Shown: in pieces, positions 1,983 to 17,910 of the stretch
Position numbering within the stretch: position 1 is the stretch's first letter
Layout: each line of letters begins with the position of its first letter
Origin: a virus
Direction: 5' to 3' (one strand)
Virus record (IMG/VR): IMGVR_UViG_3300007516_000155
Span: 1 to 23,579 of that record
DNA length: 23,579 nt
Made by a program: the position numbers and the translations under genes
Notes under the pieces: generated by a model
Told to the model about the DNA's origin: nothing
Database searches by the model: none
The model's input: the letters and a program-made list of their open reading frames with translations, nothing else

Positions 1983-2113
1983 ACCGTGCACGCCACCTCG
2001 GCCAGCAATCGCCGGTCGTGAAGCCTCTGCAGCGAACCCCTCGCCGTCCGTCTTGTCGTGTCGGGACTGACTTCGATGTCATGCGAGGGACCACACACAC
2101 ATGGAGAGTGCAC

Positions 2114-3907
2114 ATGAACAGCTACACCGCCAGTTTCGGAAAGATCGACGGCGACCAGTCGACGTACACGGTCGGCGATGGTGACGCCGCTGTTCGCCTC
2201 GTCCGATCAACGCCCTCGGTCGCCGTCGACATCGAGACGGCCGGGCTCGGTATCGACGCCCACAACATCAAGGCCGTCGTGATCTCGTCGACCGACCACG
2301 CACATATCCTCAACCCCGTCGCCAACAAGCGGGCCATCGTGTCGTGCCTGCTGGAGGCGAGCGAGATGTCGTTCCACAACGCACCGTTCGACGTTCCCCT
2401 GCTGGTTGCAGCGGGGCTGATGAACATCGACCGCATCGACCGAGTGTTCGACACCCTTGTGGCGGCCCGAATGGCCATGCCGGGGTTCGCGTCCAAGGGA
2501 CTCGGAGCGACTTGCGAGCGTCACCTCGGCGTGGGGTACGTTCTCGCCAAGGACCAGCTCGCCGCATCGTTCAGGGCCCTGACCGGCAAGTCAAAGGCAG
2601 TGATGTTCAAAGAGCTCGGAATGTTCAGCGACCCCTACTGCAGTTACGCCGGGTTCGACGGGATCATGACCGCTCGGCTACGCACCGTTCTGCCCGATGC
2701 CGTGCACGCCTGGACACACGACCACTCGTTCAACCGAACAGACGTCGACGCCTACGCCCTGCTTGAGCGTGAGCAGATCGTCAACAGACTGCTCGTTGCT
2801 CGGGCCTCTGTGGGCATCGAGATCGACTATGAGGTGGTCGACGAGCTGCAGGCAGAGATGCGCTCCACGATGCACCGGTGCGACGCCGTGCTCGCTTCGT
2901 ACGGCATCGACACCGACCTGAGTCGCGACGCCATCAAGAAGGCGGCGATGTGGGCGCTCGACCGAGAGGGCAAGATCGGCAAGGGCCACCGCCGACTGAG
3001 CGACCATCAGCCCTCGGCCGACAAGAAGTTCCTGGAGCGCATAGACCACCCGATCAGCGATGCACTCTCGGAGCGCTCAAGGGCGGCCCGGTTCCACGAC
3101 GACTACGCCGAGAAGCTCAGCGACCTCTCACAGTTCGACAACAGGATCCGCCCCACCGTCAACGTGATGGCCGCCGTAACGGGCCGCATGTCTATCGGCA
3201 ACCCGCCGCTACAGCAGTTCCCAGGAAACGTCCGGCGCATGATGCGCTTCGACGCACCCGTCACCAGCATGGACTGGTCGAGCATCGAGCCTGTGTTCGC
3301 CGGGAACGTGTTCGGCGAGAAAGAGTGGATCGCCGGGTTCGAAGCCGGTGGAGATCTGTACACGCCCGTGGCCGAGGCGGCCGGGGTCGACCGCAAGACG
3401 GCCAAGGTCATTCTGCTCGCCCAGCTTTACGGTCAGGGCCACACGTCCCTCGGGGTAGCGCTCGGAGTTTCGCCCGAGGACGCCAAGACGCTCATCTCAA
3501 GGGTCATGGAGCCTCTATCGGGCATTACGGCGGGTAGCGAGGCTCTCAGGACCGTCTCAGAGCGTTTTGGCAAGGTCCAGACCGTGAGCGGGCGCATCGT
3601 GCCACAGCCCGTCGACCACGCCACCGGCAACAACCGGTTCAAGGGCTACATCGGCACGAATCACTTCGTGCAAGGGAGCTGCTACGACCTACTGTCCGAG
3701 TCGATCGCCGCAATGCACCGGGCCGGGCTCGGTGGGGAACTCCACATGGCCGTGCACGACGAGCTCGTCGTGTCGACCGACGCCGCCGACGAGGTTGAGC
3801 AGATAATGCTCAAGCCGCCGCCCGAGTTCGTCGAGATGGCGGGCCGGGCCCCGAAGCTGCGCGTCGGCCGTGTCGACCTCGGCCACCACTGGGAAGACAC
3901 ACACTAA
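2114..3907 (+). CDS. Family A DNA polymerase with 3'-5' exonuclease
   Basis: The 597-residue protein is a DNA polymerase I-type replicase. VAVDIETAGL (D39, E41) is the first motif of a DnaQ-like 3'-5' exonuclease domain. The polymerase motifs follow in order: motif A SMDWSSIEP (D387), motif B DRKTAKVILLAQLYGQG (K431, Y439) and motif C VHDE (D549). There is no room for the 5' nuclease domain of bacterial Pol I, as is normal for phage enzymes. The frame is open upstream to 2018, but I chose the ATG at 2114 because GGAGAG lies just before it and the upstream codons read as non-coding. The genes for a single-strand-binding candidate and a primase-helicase flank it, so it is very probably the phage replicative polymerase. 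Confidence 0.93.
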   Translation: MNSYTASFGKIDGDQSTYTVGDGDAAVRLVRSTPSVAVDIETAGLGIDAHNIKAVVISSTDHAHILNPVANKRAIVSCLLEASEMSFHNAPFDVPLLVAAGLMNIDRIDRVFDTLVAARMAMPGFASKGLGATCERHLGVGYVLAKDQLAASFRALTGKSKAVMFKELGMFSDPYCSYAGFDGIMTARLRTVLPDAVHAWTHDHSFNRTDVDAYALLEREQIVNRLLVARASVGIEIDYEVVDELQAEMRSTMHRCDAVLASYGIDTDLSRDAIKKAAMWALDREGKIGKGHRRLSDHQPSADKKFLERIDHPISDALSERSRAARFHDDYAEKLSDLSQFDNRIRPTVNVMAAVTGRMSIGNPPLQQFPGNVRRMMRFDAPVTSMDWSSIEPVFAGNVFGEKEWIAGFEAGGDLYTPVAEAAGVDRKTAKVILLAQLYGQGHTSLGVALGVSPEDAKTLISRVMEPLSGITAGSEALRTVSERFGKVQTVSGRIVPQPVDHATGNNRFKGYIGTNHFVQGSCYDLLSESIAAMHRAGLGGELHMAVHDELVVSTDAADEVEQIMLKPPPEFVEMAGRAPKLRVGRVDLGHHWEDTH

Positions 3908-3929: not shown

Positions 3930-6680
3930 ATGACACGCATCTTCACTGACATCTTCGGTATGGGGTCGCCGGTCCCCGGCGAGGGCCCCGAGATCGACAT
4001 ACGACGAGTGGCCATGGAGGCCACGAAGCACGGCTACGGCATCGTGCCGGTCAAGCCCCTCGGCAAGAAGCCGCTCTGCACGCTGACACGTATCGAGCGC
4101 AAGAAGAACGGCGCAGCGCACAACTGCTCGACCTACCACGCCATCACCGACCCGAGGGATGCCGACCGGGTATTCGCCAGAATGCAGCGCGAGATCCACA
4201 AGGGCGATCCCGGCCTGAACATCAACCTCGGCATCGTGGCCGGGCCGTCGCGTCTGATCAACATCGACGCCGACACGCCCGAGTCTGTTGCAGCGTTCCA
4301 GGAGCTGTGGCCGGGAGCGCCGAACGTACGCACGCCGGGCGCATTTCGCGATGGCGTGTGGAAACACTCGGACGGCGGCCACTGGTATTTCGATCTGCCC
4401 GAGGGCGTCGTCCTGCCGTCCCTGACCACGAAGCACCGCTACGAGGGCGCTGACATCCGCTGGGGCATGCAGATGGCCGTAGCACCGCCCAGCGTGCGTG
4501 AGGAGGGCCCGTACCGGGCGCAGGGAGACATTCCGAACGTACCGGCGTTCCTGCTTGAGATGATCGCTGACATCGACGCCACCGCCCGGCGTAAGCAGGC
4601 CGATCTGTCCGACAGGTTCGTCAACGACAAGGTCGCCAGCTGGTCGGTCATCACGCCGTGGGCGCATCTCCTGGTGCCTGATGGCTGGGACGCCACCGGC
4701 AAGGACGATATGACCTGTGGGTGCCCGGTGTGGGAGAAGCCGGGCGGTGGGTCCACCAGTGACCGCTCGGCCGTGGCGCACGGTGTCGACTGCCGCTCGG
4801 AGCGGTACGAGAACGTCGAAGGCCACGCCCCGCTGCACTGGTTCACTGACGAGCCGCCCCCCGGCCTCACTGCGTACAGCGCCGTCAACGGGTCGAGTCA
4901 GACCGTCACCAAGCTGCAGTACGTGGCCTGGATGCACCACGGTGGCGACATCGACAAGGCCAAAGTGGCCCTCGGATTGACCAACGATACGACCTCATTC
5001 TGGTTCGATTCGAACATGCGTTCTGCCACGTATCATGACACTAACGTGCCAGTTGATCCAGTAGCTGTAAAACCCCTGCTAGATCCACGTATTTCACGTA
5101 TATACGTGGAATCGTACGTGGACGACCCCTCAGTACGTGAAAAACCCCTGCTAGATGCACCTATTTCGACCCCAATATCACGTACGAGGCACCCTGAAAT
5201 ACCCCCCTTTAACCCCCCATTCGTACGTGAAGGCATCCCCGTCCTGGACCAGGCCCTGGACGAGGGCCCCCTGCTAGATGCGGGCGACATCGGTGACTTT
5301 GTCCAGGAAAGCCTTGTCAAACGTTTCGCCCAGCTTGGTAGGCCCGTGACCGAAGAGCTGTTGAGGGAGACCATGGCCCTCGCTGCGGTTCACCTGACTA
5401 ATCGGGTGGTCAAGGGAGCGCTCGACGACGCCGAACGTAGGAAGTTGACCCCGGCTCGTCACGAGCCGACGATGCTGGAGGCGTGGGACTGTGACGTCGA
5501 GGAGGCGACCCCCAGCATCCTGCAGATCGACGGTTCGCACCTGCTCTACCGTGGGCGCACCAACCTGCTGTTCGGTCGGAGAGGGTCGTGCAAGACGTGG
5601 GTAGCGATGTTGGCGTGCCTGGACGGGATCAGGCAAGGTGGCCGGTCGTGCTACATCGATCTGGAGGACACGCTCCCGGCGATGCGTTCGCGGTTCGAAA
5701 CGACCCTGGGCATCGACATGCGCCCCGCCATCGAAAGGGGCCAGTTCCTGTGGCGTCGGCTCCCTTCGCTGGATTCAGCGTCGATGCCCGATCTCATCAA
5801 CGAGCTGGCCGCTTACGACGTCGTCGTGTTCGACGTGTTGTCTCGGATGGTCGGCCGTCTCGGTGGCGACGTCAACACGGGCAACACCGAGACGATGGCA
5901 CTGTTCGACCAGTTGTTCGATCCCCTTGCCGATCGCGGTGTGTGTGTGCTCATTCTGGCGCACCCCAACAAGGCCGGTCAGAAGAAGTCTGTCGACATCG
6001 AGGAGCTAGAGCCCGCCGGTGGCGCAAAGACGATGGACAACCTGAGCGGGCACGCCATTGCCCTACGCCCGATACGTCAGCTCACCAAGGAGAATTCGAC
6101 GAACGCCGAGATCCACTTGATCTCTAAGAAGGACCGCTCGGGCAACTTCATCGAGGACGCCGTCATCGGGGCGCTGCGCTCTAGCGCCGGGGTCAGCGCC
6201 GGGCGAGTCTGCACCGATCTCAAGATCACCCGTAACGTGACCTCGGCGGAGGATCTCTCCATCAAGGCCGGGGAGGCCGTCATGGAGCTCCTGGAGGGCC
6301 ACACAACGATGCCGGTGCGTGTGATCGATATCGAGCTGCCGGGCTACCTGTCCGATCTTCGAGGTGTGGCGCTCAGGGCGCTCCACGACAGCGGCCGGGT
6401 GGTGCTGTACGGTGACACGGTGATGTTGGTGGGGGCTTCGATCGTGACGCACGACATTCCGGTGCAGACGCGTATCGTTGACGGCCTTATGAAGAAGCCG
6501 GGCGAGTGGTACGCAACGAGCGATACGCGCTCCCTGGCCGGTTCCCGCAACGGCAGTCCGGTGATAAACGACGCCATCAACCTTCTCGTTCAAATGGGCG
6601 TAATTGAATCTCGTACCATCGAGATATCTGGGGGCCGGGAGGGCGTCCAGTACCGATACAAGCAAGAGGAGCAGACATGA
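3930..6680 (+). CDS. Primase-polymerase/helicase fusion protein
   Basis: This 916-residue protein joins an archaeo-eukaryotic-type primase-polymerase domain (residues about 20-220; GIVPVKPLGKKP near the start and INIDADTPES with D113/D115 as the probable metal ligands) to a RecA-like ATPase of the hexameric helicase type. Its Walker A is GRRGSCKT (549-556) and Walker B is VVVFD (D635), with a helix-rich, winged-helix-like C-terminus. The start at 3930 has AAGGGAG just upstream; an earlier in-frame ATG at 3870 overlaps the polymerase gene and is less likely. A linker at about residues 366-450 is AT-rich, repetitive and poor in recognisable fold; its DNA carries the candidate origin described separately. 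The protein probably primes and unwinds phage DNA for the adjacent polymerase. The stop overlaps the next ATG. Confidence 0.88.
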   Translation: MTRIFTDIFGMGSPVPGEGPEIDIRRVAMEATKHGYGIVPVKPLGKKPLCTLTRIERKKNGAAHNCSTYHAITDPRDADRVFARMQREIHKGDPGLNINLGIVAGPSRLINIDADTPESVAAFQELWPGAPNVRTPGAFRDGVWKHSDGGHWYFDLPEGVVLPSLTTKHRYEGADIRWGMQMAVAPPSVREEGPYRAQGDIPNVPAFLLEMIADIDATARRKQADLSDRFVNDKVASWSVITPWAHLLVPDGWDATGKDDMTCGCPVWEKPGGGSTSDRSAVAHGVDCRSERYENVEGHAPLHWFTDEPPPGLTAYSAVNGSSQTVTKLQYVAWMHHGGDIDKAKVALGLTNDTTSFWFDSNMRSATYHDTNVPVDPVAVKPLLDPRISRIYVESYVDDPSVREKPLLDAPISTPISRTRHPEIPPFNPPFVREGIPVLDQALDEGPLLDAGDIGDFVQESLVKRFAQLGRPVTEELLRETMALAAVHLTNRVVKGALDDAERRKLTPARHEPTMLEAWDCDVEEATPSILQIDGSHLLYRGRTNLLFGRRGSCKTWVAMLACLDGIRQGGRSCYIDLEDTLPAMRSRFETTLGIDMRPAIERGQFLWRRLPSLDSASMPDLINELAAYDVVVFDVLSRMVGRLGGDVNTGNTETMALFDQLFDPLADRGVCVLILAHPNKAGQKKSVDIEELEPAGGAKTMDNLSGHAIALRPIRQLTKENSTNAEIHLISKKDRSGNFIEDAVIGALRSSAGVSAGRVCTDLKITRNVTSAEDLSIKAGEAVMELLEGHTTMPVRVIDIELPGYLSDLRGVALRALHDSGRVVLYGDTVMLVGASIVTHDIPVQTRIVDGLMKKPGEWYATSDTRSLAGSRNGSPVINDAINLLVQMGVIESRTIEISGGREGVQYRYKQEEQT
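5027..5229. repeat. Cluster of eight CACGTA/TACGTG sites (candidate origin)
   Basis: CACGTA occurs at 5027, 5086, 5095 and 5179 and its complement TACGTG at 5103, 5115, 5134 and 5224, eight copies in 203 bp where chance predicts about 0.1. Several extend to GTACGTGA/TCACGTAC. The copies fall in different codon phases of the primase-helicase gene (TAC GTG, GTA CGT G, CA CGT A), so protein sequence does not explain them. The surrounding 100 bp (5031-5130) has 47% GC by hand count, well below the neighbouring genes. The likely role is binding of an initiator, perhaps the encoded protein itself; this is inference. Confidence 0.65.
5069..5281 (+). repeat. Direct repeats CCCCTGCTAGAT in primase-helicase linker
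   Basis: A 27-bp unit at 5069-5095 is repeated at 5141-5167 with two mismatches, 72 bp apart. A shorter third copy sharing CCCCTGCTAGATGC lies at 5268-5281. All three are in the same codon phase and encode KPLLDPRIS, KPLLDAPIS and GPLLDAG. They alternate with the CACGTA sites and may be part of the same candidate origin. A repeat selected at the protein level cannot be ruled out for this set. Confidence 0.75.
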
Positions 6681-6766: not shown

Positions 6767-7143
6767 ACACGCACACAAAGGGCAGTGTGTGGCGTAGGGC
6801 CACACAGCAATGGCTCAACGAGCTGGGCGCTCACACAAGGTTCCGCTCCATCGGCGAGGCGGGGGACGACATCACGGCCAAGCTGGGAGATACCGAATAC
6901 AGCGTGGAATGCAAGAACGTGAAGAGCATCACGCTGTCGTCGTTCGTTGACCAGGCGAACGGTAACGCTCTGGCCCACCAGGTGCCGGTGGTCTTCATCA
7001 AGCGGAGGGGCCGGGTGGGTGTGGGTGACGGCTATGTTGTGATGAGCGCCGATCATTGGGCTAGGATGGCGCTCGTGTGTGCTACCGCACCGCCCCTCGC
7101 TCCCCCAGGCGATGTGGGCGGTGCTGGGGCCGGGGGGTCATAG
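6763..7143 (+). CDS. Holliday-junction-resolvase-like PD-(D/E)XK nuclease
   Basis: Starting at the GTG at 6763 that overlaps the preceding stop, the product has 126 residues. KGSVWRRATQQWLNELG is the N-terminal helix typical of Hjc-like resolvases, GDDI supplies the first metal-binding aspartate, and VECKN gives the E-x-K motif. DQAN then comes before the strand VPVVFIKRRG. This order matches small archaeal-type Holliday junction resolvases and related phage nucleases. It would cut branched intermediates before packaging or during recombination. The C-terminal 20 residues are Pro/Gly/Ala-rich and probably disordered. The reading frame is open further upstream, but that part lies inside the primase-helicase and membrane-peptide genes. 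The stop TAG overlaps the next GTG. Confidence 0.7.
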   Translation: MNTHTKGSVWRRATQQWLNELGAHTRFRSIGEAGDDITAKLGDTEYSVECKNVKSITLSSFVDQANGNALAHQVPVVFIKRRGRVGVGDGYVVMSADHWARMALVCATAPPLAPPGDVGGAGAGGS

Positions 7144-7421
7144 TGCCCGCCCTCGACCGTAGCCATTACAGCGGCACGTTCCAGAAGGACGCTAGGCGTG
7201 TACGCAAGGCTGCGTACGCCGATCCCTCCACCGTGTGCCCCACCTGCGGCTTGACACTGGAGCAGGCCCAGGTGGGGGCGCGTACCCCCGTCACATGGGA
7301 CGCTGGCCACATGCTCGATGGTGTTAAGGGCTCACCGCTGATCGCTCAGCACTCAAGCTGTAATCGAAGGGCCGGAGCGCGTGCCGGAAACGCCAAGCGG
7401 GGCAGCGGATACGGCTGGTAG
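7143..7421 (+). CDS. HNH endonuclease
   Basis: The product is 92 residues from the GTG at 7143, which overlaps the previous stop (TAGTG). It contains CPTCG (residues about 37-41), WDAGH with the catalytic histidine, and the terminal HSSCNRRAG in which H and N complete the HNH motif; the two CxxC-type pairs would bind a structural zinc. HNH proteins encoded next to terminase genes often assist cleavage at cos sites, and the terminase genes follow after a non-coding gap. A role in packaging is therefore the favoured inference, with a role in recombination as the alternative. Confidence 0.82.
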   Translation: MPALDRSHYSGTFQKDARRVRKAAYADPSTVCPTCGLTLEQAQVGARTPVTWDAGHMLDGVKGSPLIAQHSSCNRRAGARAGNAKRGSGYGW

Positions 7422-7542
7422 GTAGGGGTAGGTAGGGGTGGGTAGGGGCGGGTACGCATGGAGCTGTGTGGTGATCCGTCATCGGCGAATGGCCACCTAC
7501 CACCACCTACCCCTACCTGTCCCTACCTGTCCCTACCCGCCC
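7417..7542. repeat. Inverted arrays of ten-bp-phased GGTAGG repeats
   Basis: GGTAGG occurs at 7417, 7421, 7431 and 7441, the last three as tandem decamers GGTAGGGGTA, GGTAGGGGTG and GGTAGGGGCG. After a spacer of about 45 bp the complement CCTACC occurs at 7496, 7506, 7512, 7522 and 7532, mostly 10 bp apart (two identical CCCTACCTGT decamers). The two arms could fold into a long imperfect hairpin (a 22-bp stretch matches at about 18 positions), and the G-rich strand could form quadruplexes. Ten-bp phasing puts each copy on the same face of the helix, as expected for cooperative protein binding. Confidence 0.9.
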
Positions 7543-7607: not shown

Positions 7608-7826
7608 AGAGGGGCACGTCGCCAGGAGCACCCCGATTGGATTACGTATTCTTATGAGTCCCCGGAAACCCTTGTGATATATGGCTTTCCCGAGGTCGTA
7701 ACGCCTCAGAAAGTGACCTTCAGCGGTACAGAAAACCTCACGTAGAGAGGTCATTCTCAATACGGCCGGATATCGGCAGATACGACCAAGATTCGTCACG
7801 GTATGTGCGTGTATCGCTGAGTACGC

Positions 7827-7840: not shown

Positions 7841-8179
7841 ATGAAGCTCCCCGCCACCGTTGAGGCCCTGGTACGACTTCGTGACCAAGTCAACGCCGCC
7901 CTCGCCGAGGCCGGTTACGAGCTCGACGAGCGTGCCGAGCTCGTTCGGGTTCGTGAGTCCATGTGGGTTCACCTCGACGCAGAGACGGCGGTCGGCACTC
8001 AGAAGCTGGGCGTCGGTGCGATCGCTGGGCAGCTCGTTAAGACCATCCAGGCCATCGCCCAGCTAGACCGAGCGAGCACGGCCGAAACCGTGAAGGAGCC
8101 GACACTTGCAGACGCTCTCGCCGCTGCTCGGAAGTCAAGAACCGAGCGCCAAGCACAGTCCAGTCGACGCAGTTCGTAA
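7841..8179 (+). CDS. Putative small terminase subunit
   Basis: The product has 112 residues, is helix-rich (PATVEALVRLRDQVNAAL near the N-terminus, then AIAGQLVKTIQAIAQL) and ends in a basic Arg/Ser-rich tail. I recognise no diagnostic motif. The assignment rests on position: it is the first gene of the head module and overlaps the large terminase gene, where the small subunit that recognises the packaging site is normally encoded. An earlier in-frame GTG at 7805 is possible, but a candidate -10 box sits between it and the ATG. The gene appears leaderless. A different small head-module protein cannot be excluded. Confidence 0.45.
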   Translation: MKLPATVEALVRLRDQVNAALAEAGYELDERAELVRVRESMWVHLDAETAVGTQKLGVGAIAGQLVKTIQAIAQLDRASTAETVKEPTLADALAAARKSRTERQAQSSRRSS

Positions 8180-9575
8180 CCCGCTCACCGACGCCGCACT
8201 CGACCTCGTCGAGATGTGCGGGCTCCATCTCTTTGACTGGCAGCTCGACGTTCTCGTCGACTCGATCAAGGTCCGAGCGAGCGACCCGACCAAGTTCGCC
8301 GCCACCGAGACGGGCCTCGTCGTGGCCCGTCAGAACGGGAAGGGCTCGATCCTTGAGGCGCGCCAGCTCATCGGCCTCTTTGTCTTGAACGAGCCGTTGC
8401 AGATCCACACGGCGCACGAGTACAAAACCGCCATGGAGCACTTCCTGCGTATCAAGTCGCTTGTCGAGGGGTCTCGCATGTTGATGAAGGACGTCAAGAT
8501 CATTCGAACGGGTGCGGGCGACCAGGGGATCATGCTCAGGAACGGATCACGCCTCAAGTTTCTCGCTCGCAACGGAACGAGCGGTCGCGGGTTCAGCTCC
8601 GACACGCTTTACCTCGACGAGTCGTTCGTTCTGTCGAACGTGACTATGGGTGCCGTTCTGCCGACCATGATGGCCCGAGAGAATCCGTCGATCTGGTACA
8701 CCTCGTCGGCACCGCACAAGGATTCTCCCGTTCTCCGAAAGGTGATGAACCGAGGCCGGGCCCACGAGGGCGGCCGCTTGCTGTATTACGAATGGGGCAA
8801 CGACGCCGACGTCACGCCGTCGGACCGCTCGTCGTGGTGCCGGGCCAACCCGTCTCTCGGCCTCATCATCGACCCCGACCTCATCGAGATGGCGTTCGCC
8901 ACGCTCGACCCCGCCGAGTTCGCAAGAGAGCACCTCGGTGTCCCCGAGGACGAGGGCGTTCAGGCTGACGTTCCGATCCCTCTCGACGTGTGGGAGACTC
9001 TGACCGATGGTAAATCGATGGCGGTCGACGAGGGTGTCCGCCTGGCGCTCGACGTCTCACCTGATCGGCAGTGGTCGACGTTCGGTATCTCTGGTCACCG
9101 CAGCGATGGCCTCCGCCATGTTGCGGTCAGAGATCGCCGCCCTGGAACGGACTGGGTACTCGCCCGTGCGCGTGAGCTCGCTGAGGGTCACAAGACGTCC
9201 ATCATTATTGTGGCGGGTAGTCCGGCCGGTGCGTTCATCGACTCATTCGCTGCCGCCGTGCCACCGATCCCGGTTGACGTCATGTCGACGGCCGACTACA
9301 CGGCCGCCACCGGTCGGTTCATCGACGCTACACGCGGGGAGGCACCGCAGCTCCGGCACCGAGGAGATCCGAATATCCGGTTGGCGTTGGCCGCTGTGAA
9401 GCTCAAGAATCACAGCGACGGCGGGCAGTACTGGAGCCGAAGGTCGAGCGAGATCGATATAACACCTTTGACGACGTCCACTATGGCACACGGCCGTCTT
9501 GATACCCTAAGTGAAGCCACCGAGTACCTCGGCGGCGTGACGTCGCTGGACGACTGGCTGGAGGATGACGAATGA
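8106..9575 (+). CDS. Terminase large subunit
   Basis: This 489-residue protein is the packaging motor. The ATPase has a Walker A-type VVARQNGKGS (residues 73-81) and Walker B LYLDE (D171, E172); YTSSAPH (about 200-206) follows as the coupling motif. The C-terminal RNase H-like nuclease starts with LALDVS (D316). The variant P-loop ARQNGKG is typical of large terminases in many actinobacteriophages. The start is a TTG with GAAGGAG (8092-8098) seven bases upstream, giving a 74-base overlap with the small subunit gene; no ATG or GTG nearer the stop of that gene preserves the N-terminal FDWQ segment with a comparable binding site. The stop overlaps the next ATG. Confidence 0.93.
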   Translation: MQTLSPLLGSQEPSAKHSPVDAVRNPLTDAALDLVEMCGLHLFDWQLDVLVDSIKVRASDPTKFAATETGLVVARQNGKGSILEARQLIGLFVLNEPLQIHTAHEYKTAMEHFLRIKSLVEGSRMLMKDVKIIRTGAGDQGIMLRNGSRLKFLARNGTSGRGFSSDTLYLDESFVLSNVTMGAVLPTMMARENPSIWYTSSAPHKDSPVLRKVMNRGRAHEGGRLLYYEWGNDADVTPSDRSSWCRANPSLGLIIDPDLIEMAFATLDPAEFAREHLGVPEDEGVQADVPIPLDVWETLTDGKSMAVDEGVRLALDVSPDRQWSTFGISGHRSDGLRHVAVRDRRPGTDWVLARARELAEGHKTSIIIVAGSPAGAFIDSFAAAVPPIPVDVMSTADYTAATGRFIDATRGEAPQLRHRGDPNIRLALAAVKLKNHSDGGQYWSRRSSEIDITPLTTSTMAHGRLDTLSEATEYLGGVTSLDDWLEDDE

Positions 9576-10958: not shown

Positions 10959-13640
10959 GTGCCGGTCGACGGGCTCACGGGCGAGGGTGCCTACCGGGCA
11001 GGATCGGGCGGAGGCAACCCGCTGCTTAGCGAACTGGCCGGTGGGTACATCAAGTCGGCCGGTTCGATCGAGACGGCGAACCGCCTGTCCGACCGAGAGA
11101 AGCAGGCGGTCGCCGACGAGCTGAACGCTCAGCCGTACGGTCGGATCTTTGGCGACCTCGGCGCTACCAACGAGGCATTGGTCAACTTCGGCCTCCCGTC
11201 GGCAACCGCCGCCGAGGTCAACGAAGCGGGGCTGCCCGTCGGCGGATCGCTGCCTTCGATTCCGCTCGGCGTGCGTATGCAGATCTCCGACGTTGAGACG
11301 CAGATGAACATCCGCCAGAAGAACACACCACCGGTAAACGCGTTCTCGTCACCGGACCAGGTCGACGCCGCCGCCGCCAACCGTGACTCAAAAGAGGCCG
11401 TGTTCCAGGCCGTGCGAGAGTTCAAGGGCGAGCGCGAGACGGCCGGGCTCCCGGCCGTCGGCGACGTTAAGTTGCTGTCGGCCCGGCTGGAGGCAGCGAC
11501 AGGCGTCAGCCCGGCCTCGGCACTGATCTCCAACACCAACAGCGCATGGGCCCTCTCCTCGCAGTCCACTGTGTCGGTCGCCGCTCAGCTTGAGGTCGCA
11601 GCGCACCGCGGCGATAAGACGTTCAAGGCCAGCACCCCCAACGGGTCACTGACCGTTCCCGTTTCGATGGGCTGGATCCCCTCGGGCCACCTAAACAGCG
11701 CCGCCGCTCTCCGCAACACGTTGCCGACTTCGTTCAGCGCAGTCCGCGAAGCGACGCAGCGCCAGACCGCCAGCGTGATGTCGAAGAGCGGCATCGAGCC
11801 GACCGATCTGGTCACGCTGTACCGGGGCTCGGGATCGTCGACCATCTCAAACGTTGGCGGGCAGAACGTGTCGATCAAGACCAACCCGCTCAGCTCGTGG
11901 TCAGAGTCGAAGACTGTAGCGGCCTCGTTCGGCGGCAGCACAATCACGATCGACGTCCCGGCGTCACAGATATACGGCGTCTCGACGTGGTCGGGCAACG
12001 GCTCAATTATTGAGCGCGAGGTCGTGCTGTACGATAGCCCGACCAACTTCGTCGACTTCGCCGTCACCAACCGCTCGGAGAACGCCGTGACCATCAACAT
12101 TGACGAGGCCGAGCACGACTGGATCAAGCAGGTGAGGATGCCCGGCACTGAGGACGCCGACATCAGGGGCGCTCACACCCTGGCCGACCCGCACGTCATA
12201 GACGTTCGGCACGGTTCTCACAACCAGAAGTCTCACGGCCGCCCGGCCGGGTTCGACGTGTCGCGTGGCGGCAAGGGCAAAGTGCTCAAGGGGCTGGGCC
12301 CCGGCGAGTACTTCACCACGCCGGAAATCGACGCAGCGTACGCTTCAGGAAAATCATCAACAGGCGACGTCACTACTCGCCACAGCTATGGGAGGTCCAA
12401 CGGGATGAGCCGGGAAATAATCAGCATCGGGGTGTCGACCGACTCCGATGGTCAAGACGTCAGTGAGTCCCTCTTCGCTGACGGCTCTGAAGACGTGGAC
12501 CTGCTGGCGCTTGAGGCGCTCTCCGAGGCCAACGAGTGGCTGGTTCCCGAGCGCAGCGCCGTGCGCCACGGCGGTCACTCTCCGCAGTCTGTTCACGGTC
12601 GACGTAAAGGTAGTGCGACGGGCGGCGGCTTCGACTCTCAGGCCGCAAACTCGACGATCGGCGATGACGGGCGACGCACGTACAGCGCCGGGCGCGTATC
12701 GGACGTTCACGACCCGTTCGTCAGCGGTCAGATGGCCGGGGTCACACCGAGCGCCAACAAGACCCTCACGATCATGGGCGGGGGATCCGGTGCGGGCAAG
12801 GGCACGCTCCTCAGTACCGGCCTCGTCAAGACCGACAACGCCGTCAAGTCTGACAGTGACGAGGCCAAGGCCGCTCTGCCCGAGTACCAGGCCCGCCTGA
12901 AGAAGGGCGACACCAGCGCCGCCGCTTACGCTCACGAAGAATCGTCAGACATGGCGTCTCGACTGGTCGCCGAGTCTCTCGCTGCGGGCAACGACACGAT
13001 CCTTGACGGGACCGGCGACTCGTCGATCGCAAAGATTGAGGCCAAGGTCGCTGCAGGCCGGGCGTCAGGGGCCCGAGTCATCGCCGAGTACGCCACGATC
13101 TCAAAGGACGAGGCGTTCAAGCGGGCCACCGATCGGGCCGAGCGAACCGGTCGAAAGGTTCCGGCAGAGAACATCGAGAACACTCACAACTCTGTGAGCG
13201 ATGTCGTGCCCCAGGCCGTCAAGCTCAAGCTCTTCGACGAGATCCGAGTGTGGGACATGACGTCCACGCCGAGGGTCATCTTCGAACAGAAGAACGGAGT
13301 CGACAACGTGATCGATCCTGGGGCGTGGGAGTCGTTCAAGAACAAGGGCAGTCAGCCCTCTATCGTTCCCCGGTCAGACAGCGTAGGTGCCGGTGAGAAT
13401 GTCGTAAGCGGCCGGATCGGCGATCTCCTTCGAGGGATCAACGATGTACCCAGCGGCGGCGATCTCCGCAACCTGTACGACGAGTCGGTCCCACGAAGCG
13501 CCGAGCTCGGCGGACTTCCCCGCAACGGCGGACTCGGACTTGGCGAGTCCTCGCCCGATCTCGGCGGTCATCCTGATGCTGTCGTCGGAGCTAATCATGG
13601 TCGAGACGCTATCACGTCGCCCCGAATGAGCGTGCCCTGA
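10959..13640 (+). CDS. ADP-ribosyltransferase/zeta-toxin-kinase multidomain head-module protein
   Basis: The 893-residue ORF has three parts, the second and third each introduced by a His-rich motif. Part 1 (to about 408) ends in an R-S-E-type mono-ADP-ribosyltransferase: LYRGSGS (R289), NPLSSWSES (312-317) and the E-x-E motif IIEREVVL (E352, E354), which suggests arginine as acceptor. Part 2 (429-534) follows the motif VRHGSHNQKSHGR and is unrecognised. Part 3 follows VRHGGHSPQSVHGR and is a zeta-toxin/PezT-type kinase: P-loop GGGSGAGKGT (607-616), KSDSDE (D632, D634), LPEY and the HEESSD segment. Known zeta toxins phosphorylate UDP-N-acetylglucosamine; the substrate here is unknown. The GTG start has no ribosome binding site and directly follows an in-frame TGA. 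The last 75-90 codons lose normal codon bias and overlap an antisense gene. Injection with the DNA or assembly into the head is inferred. Confidence 0.8.
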   Translation: MPVDGLTGEGAYRAGSGGGNPLLSELAGGYIKSAGSIETANRLSDREKQAVADELNAQPYGRIFGDLGATNEALVNFGLPSATAAEVNEAGLPVGGSLPSIPLGVRMQISDVETQMNIRQKNTPPVNAFSSPDQVDAAAANRDSKEAVFQAVREFKGERETAGLPAVGDVKLLSARLEAATGVSPASALISNTNSAWALSSQSTVSVAAQLEVAAHRGDKTFKASTPNGSLTVPVSMGWIPSGHLNSAAALRNTLPTSFSAVREATQRQTASVMSKSGIEPTDLVTLYRGSGSSTISNVGGQNVSIKTNPLSSWSESKTVAASFGGSTITIDVPASQIYGVSTWSGNGSIIEREVVLYDSPTNFVDFAVTNRSENAVTINIDEAEHDWIKQVRMPGTEDADIRGAHTLADPHVIDVRHGSHNQKSHGRPAGFDVSRGGKGKVLKGLGPGEYFTTPEIDAAYASGKSSTGDVTTRHSYGRSNGMSREIISIGVSTDSDGQDVSESLFADGSEDVDLLALEALSEANEWLVPERSAVRHGGHSPQSVHGRRKGSATGGGFDSQAANSTIGDDGRRTYSAGRVSDVHDPFVSGQMAGVTPSANKTLTIMGGGSGAGKGTLLSTGLVKTDNAVKSDSDEAKAALPEYQARLKKGDTSAAAYAHEESSDMASRLVAESLAAGNDTILDGTGDSSIAKIEAKVAAGRASGARVIAEYATISKDEAFKRATDRAERTGRKVPAENIENTHNSVSDVVPQAVKLKLFDEIRVWDMTSTPRVIFEQKNGVDNVIDPGAWESFKNKGSQPSIVPRSDSVGAGENVVSGRIGDLLRGINDVPSGGDLRNLYDESVPRSAELGGLPRNGGLGLGESSPDLGGHPDAVVGANHGRDAITSPRMSVP
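12183..12242 (+). repeat. 60-bp direct repeat, copy 2
   Basis: This copy lies between the ADP-ribosyltransferase part and the middle part of the long ORF and encodes ADPHVIDVRHGSHNQKSHGR. It differs from copy 1 (10878-10937) at four positions. A third, diverged protein-level copy of the motif (VRHGGHSPQSVHGR) is encoded at 12561-12602, just before the kinase domain. Confidence 0.92.
13374..13598 (-). CDS. 74-residue protein antisense to the kinase ORF end
   Basis: This is the only convincing minus-strand gene. The product starts MISSDDSIRMTAEIGRGLAK, is mostly helical and has balanced charge with no recognised domain. Evidence for coding is the base composition: over this stretch the + strand frame has only 45 of 73 G/C third positions (62%) but 79% G/C first positions, the reverse of the genome's habit, whereas the minus frame has GC-rich third positions. 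A TAGCGT hexamer 7 bases before the ATG could be a -10 box for a leaderless transcript. Antisense expression into the kinase gene, or an inhibitory partner for the kinase, are possibilities only. Confidence 0.5.
   Translation of the reverse strand: MISSDDSIRMTAEIGRGLAKSESAVAGKSAELGASWDRLVVQVAEIAAAGYIVDPSKEIADPAAYDILTGTYAV
13606..13611 (-). promoter_or_regulatory. Candidate -10 box for the antisense gene
   Basis: On the minus strand TAGCGT ends 7 bases before the ATG at 13598, the same geometry as TACTAT before the ATG at 7841. No ribosome binding site lies in between, consistent with leaderless translation. No -35 element is visible. Confidence 0.3.
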
Positions 13641-15931: not shown

Positions 15932-16096
15932 ATGCCAAGCTACTTAATCGATGTCGACCAGTTCGACCATCTCGCACTGGATCTTGCCCGACGGAATGAT
16001 CCCGAGGTCGTCGTGGCCGTGTTCAAGTCCGGCGGCCGCTACGAGGTTCTGACGGTTCCCAGCGCTGTTGAGTACGACATGCGTGACGCATCATGA
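15932..16096 (+). CDS. 54-residue protein of unknown function
   Basis: The ATG is preceded by GAGGAG at a good distance. The product (MPSYLIDVDQFDHLALDLAR and onward) is acidic, with a beta-strand-like segment VVVAVFKSGGRYEVLTV. I do not recognise a family. It is the first gene after the post-capsid hairpins, and its TGA overlaps the ATG of the glycosyltransferase gene, so it seems to open the decoration cassette. A small head or decoration protein is possible, as is a regulator; nothing in the sequence decides this. Confidence 0.65.
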   Translation: MPSYLIDVDQFDHLALDLARRNDPEVVVAVFKSGGRYEVLTVPSAVEYDMRDAS

Positions 16097-17910
16097 AGTT
16101 CTTGATCCATTCAAACAGTCCGACCGTGAGCACCGGCTACGGCGTGCAGTGCAGGCATCTCGCCGACCTTCTCGCTGACGCCGGTCACGAAGTCGCCGTC
16201 GGGTCGACCTACGGCCAGCAGGGCGAGGTCGGCCAGTGGACGTCCCCGAGGGGCCACAAGATCCGCATCTACCCGTCCGGCTACTTCACCAACAGCCCCG
16301 ACGTGATCTCGCAGAACGCTATGCACTTCTTTGAGGGCGACCCACAGGGTGGTGTGATCATTCCGCTTCTCGACGTGTGGGTGCTCAGCAAGAACCGAGA
16401 GCTGGCCGACTTTCGAGTTGCTGCGTGGGCCCCGGTCGACCACTACCCGGTCCCGAAGCAGGTGCTGGAGTTCTTCCACACCACCGGCGCTATCCCGATC
16501 GCCATGTCGAAGTTCGGCGAGGCGGGCCTACGTCAGGCCGGGCTCGACCCGCTGTACGTTCCACTTTCCGTCGACACCGACGTGTTTAAGCCCACGCCGA
16601 TCGTGACCACCGGCGACGGAACGTCCGTCACCGGTCACACACTGTTCGACGTCCCCTCGGACGCCTACGTGGTGGGCATGGTCGCCATGAACAAAGACCC
16701 ACAGGACCGCAAGGGGTTCAACGAAGCGTTCCGAGCGTTCGGGCAGTTCTGGAAGGGCCACAACGAGGCCGTGCTGCTGGTGCACTCCGACAAGCTGGGA
16801 GCCGCCGGTGGACTTGATCTGGTCGAGCTCGCCACGCACTGCGGGATCCCGAACCACGCCCTGATCTGGACCGACCAGTACGCCTACCGTCTCGGGCTCC
16901 CCGACGAGATGATGGCGGCGCTGTACTCGACGATGGACGTGCTGCTGGCACCTAGTCACGGCGAGGGGTTCGGCGTGCCGCTGATAGAGGCTCAGGCGTG
17001 CGGGGTTCCCGTGATCGTGTCCGACTTCAGCTCGCAGTCCGAGCTGGTCGGTTCGGGGCACCTCGTAGACGGACAGCTCATCTGGGACCAGTCGCAGTCG
17101 TCCAGTTACATCATGCCGTACACGGTCAACGTGCTGGAGGCCCTGGAGGGCGCTTACAAGCTGTCGGCCGAGGGCGCTGCCGTCGACCATCGCCGGTTCG
17201 CCATGGGCTACGACTACCGCACCGTGTTCGCCGAGAACTGGGTGCCCGTGCTCAACGAGCTGTGCCCACCTCCGCCGCCGCTCAAGCCGAAGATGATCGA
17301 CGTCGACGTCATCGTCCCCGCAATGCGTGAAGGTAACTCCAAGCGGTTCTTCGACTCGCTCGGGTCTACCTTCAAGGTGCACCAGGGGTCGATCGACAAG
17401 ACCTACGCCCAGAACGTCAACGAGCTGGTGAGCCGTTCAGATAGCGACTGGGTACTCATCGTCGGCGACGACGTGGAGTTCACGCCGGGCTGGTTCGAAG
17501 CCGCCGCCGCCGTGTCTGAAGAGTGCGACATCATCGGGACCAACGACTCGGAGCCCGGCCGTGTCCGCAACCCCGACGTCGCTGCCGGTCGTCACGCTGA
17601 CCACTTCTTCGTTCGTCGTGACTACATCAACGATGTGGGCAGCTCGCTCGACGGGCCGGGCGTCACGATGCCCGAGTGCTACCGGCACTGGTTCGTTGAC
17701 AAAGAGGTGATCGGCCTGGCCAAGGCCCGAGGCGTCTTCAAGTTCGTCGAAGACTGCCGCATCATCCACCACCACCCAGGATACGACGGCGACGAGTCCG
17801 CCCGACAGGCCGACACGCTGTACACGCGAGCGGTCAGCCACAGCGAGTCCGACGAGGCCACGTTCATGCAACGGGCCCCGCTCATCGCCATGCACAAGGC
17901 GGGGCGATGA
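16093..17910 (+). CDS. Two-domain glycosyltransferase (GT-B plus GT-A)
   Basis: The 605-residue protein fuses two transferases. Residues 1 to about 390 are a GT-B enzyme of GT4 type: MKFLIHSNSPTVSTGYG at the N-terminus and SHGEGFGVPLIEAQACGVPV (288-307), the sugar-nucleotide binding motif. After a run of prolines, residues 401-605 are a GT-A/GT2-like domain starting IDVDVIVPAMRE, with GDDVEFTPGW (D459, D460) as the metal-binding DxD equivalent and HHHPGYDG near the end as a further metal site. The gene overlaps both neighbours by 4 bases. Two transferases in one chain could add two sugars in succession to a virion protein or other acceptor. The acceptor is unknown; the position beside capsid and connector genes suggests virion glycosylation. 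Confidence 0.85.
   Translation: MKFLIHSNSPTVSTGYGVQCRHLADLLADAGHEVAVGSTYGQQGEVGQWTSPRGHKIRIYPSGYFTNSPDVISQNAMHFFEGDPQGGVIIPLLDVWVLSKNRELADFRVAAWAPVDHYPVPKQVLEFFHTTGAIPIAMSKFGEAGLRQAGLDPLYVPLSVDTDVFKPTPIVTTGDGTSVTGHTLFDVPSDAYVVGMVAMNKDPQDRKGFNEAFRAFGQFWKGHNEAVLLVHSDKLGAAGGLDLVELATHCGIPNHALIWTDQYAYRLGLPDEMMAALYSTMDVLLAPSHGEGFGVPLIEAQACGVPVIVSDFSSQSELVGSGHLVDGQLIWDQSQSSSYIMPYTVNVLEALEGAYKLSAEGAAVDHRRFAMGYDYRTVFAENWVPVLNELCPPPPPLKPKMIDVDVIVPAMREGNSKRFFDSLGSTFKVHQGSIDKTYAQNVNELVSRSDSDWVLIVGDDVEFTPGWFEAAAAVSEECDIIGTNDSEPGRVRNPDVAAGRHADHFFVRRDYINDVGSSLDGPGVTMPECYRHWFVDKEVIGLAKARGVFKFVEDCRIIHHHPGYDGDESARQADTLYTRAVSHSESDEATFMQRAPLIAMHKAGR

Follow-up and report, generated by a model that had tools for sequence, protein, structure and literature searches.

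The sequence analyzed here, referred to as the window, is the entire 23,579 bp of IMG/VR virus record IMGVR_UViG_3300007516_000155, an incomplete contig that returned no match to known phages when the whole contig was compared by megablast. From left to right, its genes encode an exonuclease, a family A DNA polymerase, a Prim-Pol/RecA-like ATPase protein (the primase-helicase), a RusA-like resolvase, an HNH-position protein, a terS-position protein, the large terminase, the portal and head proteins (Table 1). A (CA)n run of about 35 bp lies at 106-141, right before the exonuclease gene. Between the portal and the head protease, an 893-aa protein (10959-13640) contains a Zeta-toxin-like kinase domain (Pfam, 9e-23) together with a weak ADP-ribosyltransferase-like match, and is possibly a protein carried in the head. 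Further along the head gene region, a 605-aa protein (16093-17910) weakly matches glycosyltransferase family 4. Scanning the window for Rfam families and tRNAs gave nothing.

Table 1. Features of the window considered in the text, with positions counted from its first nucleotide.
Feature	Position	Strand	Remarks
Family A DNA polymerase gene	2018-3907		directly upstream of the Prim-Pol/ATPase gene
Prim-Pol/RecA-like ATPase gene, 936 aa	3870-6680	+	GTG start as listed; ATG at 3930
Outlying YCACGTAY site	4920-4925	-	107 bp ahead of the cluster
DNA encoding the disordered linker, residues 373-451	4986-5222	+	AlphaFold2 pLDDT about 30
YCACGTAY site 1	5027-5032	+	
In-frame 37-bp direct repeat	5059-5167	+	5059-5095 and 5131-5167; spacing 72, 86% identical
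Inverted arrangement of sites 2-5	5084-5122		potential hairpin; folding z about -2.5 to -2.9
YCACGTAY site 2	5086-5091	+	
YCACGTAY site 3	5095-5100	+	
YCACGTAY site 4	5103-5108	-	
YCACGTAY site 5	5115-5120	-	
YCACGTAY site 6	5134-5139	-	
YCACGTAY site 7	5179-5184	+	
YCACGTAY site 8	5224-5229	-	
Small HNH-position protein	7143-7421		HNH by eye and by position; without family match
Ten CCTACC words in two inverted blocks	7417-7537		five minus, then five plus; intergenic; potential long hairpin, fold z -2.7
Probable cos (genome end)	7630-7645		contig L011 starts at 7638; HNH-cos-terS-terL layout
Large terminase gene	8106-9575		

Inside the primase-helicase gene, eight exact copies of CACGTA or its complement TACGTG are found within 203 bp (5027-5229), four per strand and in all three codon phases. 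This cluster was the subject of the original prediction, which put its chance expectation at about 0.1; shuffles yield 8.3 copies per contig, or about 0.07 in 203 bp, and thereby confirm the estimate. The concentration of the word is equally clear from the rest of the contig, which holds only eight other copies. All eight cluster sites fit the longer word YCACGTAY, with pyrimidines at 16 of 16 flanking positions, and nine of the ten YCACGTAY sites of the contig fall within 4920-5231 (the cluster plus the outlying site at 4920). The maximum in 300 third-order Markov simulations was three YCACGTAY per 205 bp, and a pattern scan of IMG/VR for three clustered sites of the YCACGTAY type returned four unrelated chance matches and no other such CACGTA array. 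The claim that protein coding does not explain the sites also holds: when the 70 residues are recoded at random with synonymous codons, according to the codon usage of the contig, CACGTA occurs 0.94 times on average and at most five times in 100,000 trials, and permutation of the region's own synonymous codons (mean 2.7) reaches eight once in 20,000. Coding repeats are present in the same DNA, including the direct repeat listed in Table 1 and a 14-mer, CCCCTGCTAGAT[GC]C, that recurs at 5073, 5145 and 5268, always in one codon phase. An origin of the sites through coding duplication was considered and rejected, as no two intact sites are copies of each other via the local 72-bp in-frame duplication. 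The reading of the cluster as a putative array of binding sites within the primase-helicase gene, on which selection acts at the DNA level, is well supported.

The AT-richness described for this region was likewise recovered: the GC content, 63% in the contig as a whole, falls to 45% in the 100 bp starting at 5005 and to 48% in the 200 bp starting at 4977. The region ranks among the three GC-poorest 200-bp segments of the contig and belongs to its least stable DNA. It encodes the central part of a protein that matches Pfam Prim-Pol (4e-15) and AAA_25 (1.5e-7), both above the cut-offs, as well as PHROG 906 DNA polymerase/primase (1e-60), and in which D133/D135, H171 and the P-loop residue K575 are invariant across 20 sequences. 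Judged from these matches, the protein combines an N-terminal Prim-Pol domain with its catalytic motifs and a C-terminal P-loop ATPase, the two features of the Prim-Pol/RecA-like ATPase replication proteins of actinophages, a family whose members are annotated as 'DNA primase/polymerase/helicase' or 'RepA-like helicase'. The unstructured linker that had been proposed between the two domains is also predicted by AlphaFold2 (Table 1), and the segments in which codon adaptation is poorest, compared across the main genes, begin at 4950-5130. Since the linker tolerates almost any peptide, its DNA would be free to carry sites. A C-terminal winged helix was considered and set aside: the secondary structure is suggestive only, and the AlphaFold2 model of the C-terminal domain is of too low confidence.

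Close relatives of the primase, the polymerase and the portal in IMG/VR amount to a single contig, L011, whose start lies past the primase-helicase region, and a class-wide genome search for nearer prophages gave four weak matches in 395 genomes. Every primase-helicase relative found is less than about 45% identical to the protein of the window, and the linkers are not alignable. Each relative was scanned for any clustered 6-7-mer at a cut-off of P 1e-9 (the lowest P among 25 trials with simulated loci was 6e-9). Among about 70 testable loci, in which a few array carriers are near-copies (L121/L133), an array of the genome's own word is present near the stop of the same gene in 27, or about two fifths. 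Of these, 25 pass the cut-off with array starts between -41 and +147 bp from the stop codon, and L101 and L111 were added with a 250-bp window, the latter at 5e-9, slightly weaker than the cut-off. The arrays, which directly follow the Prim-Pol/ATPase genes in viral contigs as well as in actinobacterial prophages (L058, L059, L061-L063, L066, L067, L069, L071 and others), span about 60-250 bp and comprise 6-13 copies of a 6-7-mer, nearly always on both strands (in L067 the listed word occurs on one strand only) and often as inverted blocks around AT-richer DNA. An iteron origin next to its initiator gene is built in this way, and the arrays may be regarded as a family of candidate origins with a putative role in replication initiation. 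Because the large terminase lies about 2-21 kb away, the arrays go with the primase-helicase gene and not with the packaging genes.

The array words differ between genomes, and protein pairs that are 95% and 74% identical have the same word. Among five relatives of one clade that are 57-95% identical, the ATPase half hardly differs; variation is found in the linker and in the C-terminal tail, and that of the tail roughly parallels the variation of the word. As tail and word vary together in these few cases, they point to the C-terminal tail as the putative reader of the array word. In a phylogeny built from Prim-Pol domains, the window is placed in a supported group of five (98/92), and the other four members all have a downstream array; the exact place of the window is unsure because its branch is long. 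No array follows the stop codon of the window's own primase-helicase gene. Conversely, an intragenic array in mixed codon phases, as would be expected of a lambda-type intragenic origin, was found in no relative examined, all of them distant. Two linker repeats were rejected as such arrays, namely that of L053 (a 9-bp tandem coding repeat in fixed codon phase) and that of Trine (likewise a coding repeat, tandem and acidic). An array is not a requirement of the gene family, since many distant relatives, e.g. of the mycobacteriophage cluster B type, show none in the 6-7-mer scan.

A second array in the window, absent from the original prediction, is formed by the CCTACC words between the HNH-position gene and a probable cos. 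L011, which is 99.97% identical, starts at 7638. The closest match found for the large terminase is that of the Arthrobacter phage BaileyBlu, in which 158 bp separate the end of the HNH gene from the right genome end and position 464 is the start of the large terminase; in the window, 217 bp on the side of the HNH-position gene and 468 bp on the side of the large terminase flank 7638. Based on the start of L011 and this BaileyBlu-like layout, 7638 is probably cos, which the window would thus span. Between HNH and terS at this presumed genome end, the CCTACC array has the position expected of a cos-associated element. No CCTACC-like array is present at the right ends of BaileyBlu and CallinAllBarbz. 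In both of these phages, an array of ATGACGG/CCGTCA words is located right after the serine integrase gene (L091 7747-7876 for BaileyBlu and L092 8177-8357 for CallinAllBarbz), possibly as attP or recombination sites.

Given that relatives carry own-word arrays right after the same gene, a replication origin becomes the leading explanation for the array of the window, and given that such an array is absent after the window's stop and present inside the gene, the CACGTA cluster is the most likely place for it. The eight copies of a short word, spaced at 9, 8, 12 and 19 bp where they are closest, the adjoining DNA of 48% GC and the location inside the gene are all properties of an iteron origin near or within an initiator gene. 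We estimate a probability of roughly 0.5 that the cluster represents initiator-binding iterons that form the origin, or its core, inside the initiator gene. The intragenic origin suggested originally is thus strengthened by the selection on the DNA and by the arrays of the relatives, and weakened by the competing CCTACC array; it gains no support from the GC skew, for which a minimum near 5.1 kb had been suggested as a check. The cumulative skew of the window reaches a local minimum at 5256; however, a switch from minus to plus at the array was seen in none of the 17 relatives checked. In 16 of them the DNA upstream of the array (mostly the helicase half) already has clearly positive skew, and in the remaining one the value is close to zero. 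The minimum at 5256 therefore does not serve as origin evidence.

In the proposed mechanism, the Prim-Pol/ATPase protein, perhaps through its C-terminal part, would bind YCACGTAY on both strands within the DNA that encodes the linker, the AT-rich stretches separating the sites would melt, the ATPase domain would be loaded, and the Prim-Pol domain would prime synthesis by the DNA polymerase whose gene lies directly upstream. We infer the three propositions behind this mechanism: the word is recognized by the protein, the cluster is where replication begins, and the arrays of the relatives act as origins.

The main competing explanation places the origin, bound by the primase-helicase, at the CCTACC array and assigns the CACGTA cluster to another DNA-binding protein. 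With ten copies in two inverted blocks, the CCTACC array resembles those of the relatives; it lies 737 bp past the primase-helicase gene, in the more usual intergenic place, and DNA of 48% GC begins 26 bp after it. The idea stays alive because L099 and L103 also have their arrays 1.6-2.8 kb downstream of the gene. On the other hand, the CCTACC array is located beyond the RusA-like and HNH genes and about 100-220 bp from the probable cos end, so a hairpin related to packaging or to the genome end is equally likely, and the junction between the primase gene and the RusA-like gene that holds the array in L023/L115 is empty in the window. Moreover, an origin at CCTACC leaves the coding-independent CACGTA cluster unexplained, and we consider this arrangement rather unlikely. 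Alternatively, the cluster may consist of partition (parS-like) or regulatory sites for a ParB-like protein or a repressor that came to lie in the linker by chance. The parS loci of cluster A mycobacteriophages, with eight copies of an 8-bp motif, are similar in count and size (PMC7157519). Yet about 20 proteins of the incomplete contig were scanned with no match to a ParA/ParB or repressor family, the cluster shows no sigma-70-like promoter, and the YCACGTAY sites lack the contig-wide spread expected of operators or stoperators, which makes this explanation improbable. A cluster devoid of DNA-level function, produced by chance, by local AT-rich composition or by a duplicated peptide, would agree with the 72-bp in-frame duplication in the linker DNA and with a local codon bias that favors CACGTA-type words, but it is very improbable given that none of the 100,000 synonymous resamplings reaches six copies, that no site pair arose by the duplication and that the pyrimidine flanks are invariant.

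For an origin within the CACGTA cluster, the precedent named in the original prediction is lambda gene O. The O genes of lambda and lambdoid Shiga-toxin phages contain internal iterons, and the lambda origin, like the putative origin of the window, combines repeated initiator-binding sites and AT-rich DNA inside an initiator coding sequence (PMC7466680). The parallel is apt in layout; lambda differs in having four longer iterons and a non-enzymatic O protein, whereas the window has eight 8-bp sites on both strands, in a primase-ATPase gene whose product is their putative ligand. In plasmid pRN1, an essential origin element is located just 3' of the Prim-Pol/helicase gene (PMC4234260). Here, as in phage BIP-1 as proposed, a protein with Prim-Pol and helicase parts (ORF904) has its required origin element by its own gene, which resembles the putative arrangement in the window, and the position of the pRN1 element is the same as that of the relatives' arrays. 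The element of pRN1 is a 100-nt stem-loop 3' of the gene and its helicase is of the SF3 type, whereas in the window the ATPase is RecA-like and the sites, located inside the gene, are iteron-like. In functional terms, pRN1 is nevertheless the closer parallel to the putative origin of the window. SaPI/PICI modules provide another comparison, in which element-specific iterons flank an AT-rich stretch by the rep gene and are read by the variable domain of Rep; their proteins belong to different families, and SaPI origins are not known to lie inside rep. Among mycobacteriophages with RepA plasmid-prophages, an origin beside or within repA has been suspected and compared with lambda by the authors, although their RepA is of a different family and no repeats were found at repA (PMC7157519).

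How the cluster came to lie inside the gene may tentatively be explained by a move of the family's iterons, elsewhere located just after the gene, into the linker, so that the protein would find its target in the same stretch of DNA that codes for its linker. Prim-Pol phages would then have acquired an intragenic origin of the lambda type independently, in a family in which iteron word and initiator change together between phages. If true, the window would be an independent example of an origin built into the code of a protein linker, where constraints on peptide and DNA can be cleanly separated because the linker tolerates change. A limited search of open papers found largely no mapped origins for actinobacteriophages with Prim-Pol/ATPase replication proteins, and the arrays of the relatives provide a family-wide prediction of origin positions and of the words read by these proteins. 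From such natural word-protein pairs, the recognition code of the initiators could be worked out. In L013 (4001-4402 and 4998-6251) and L057 (4001-4549 and 4835-5731), one Prim-Pol-like segment is followed in tandem by another, so that the primase domain appears to be duplicated.
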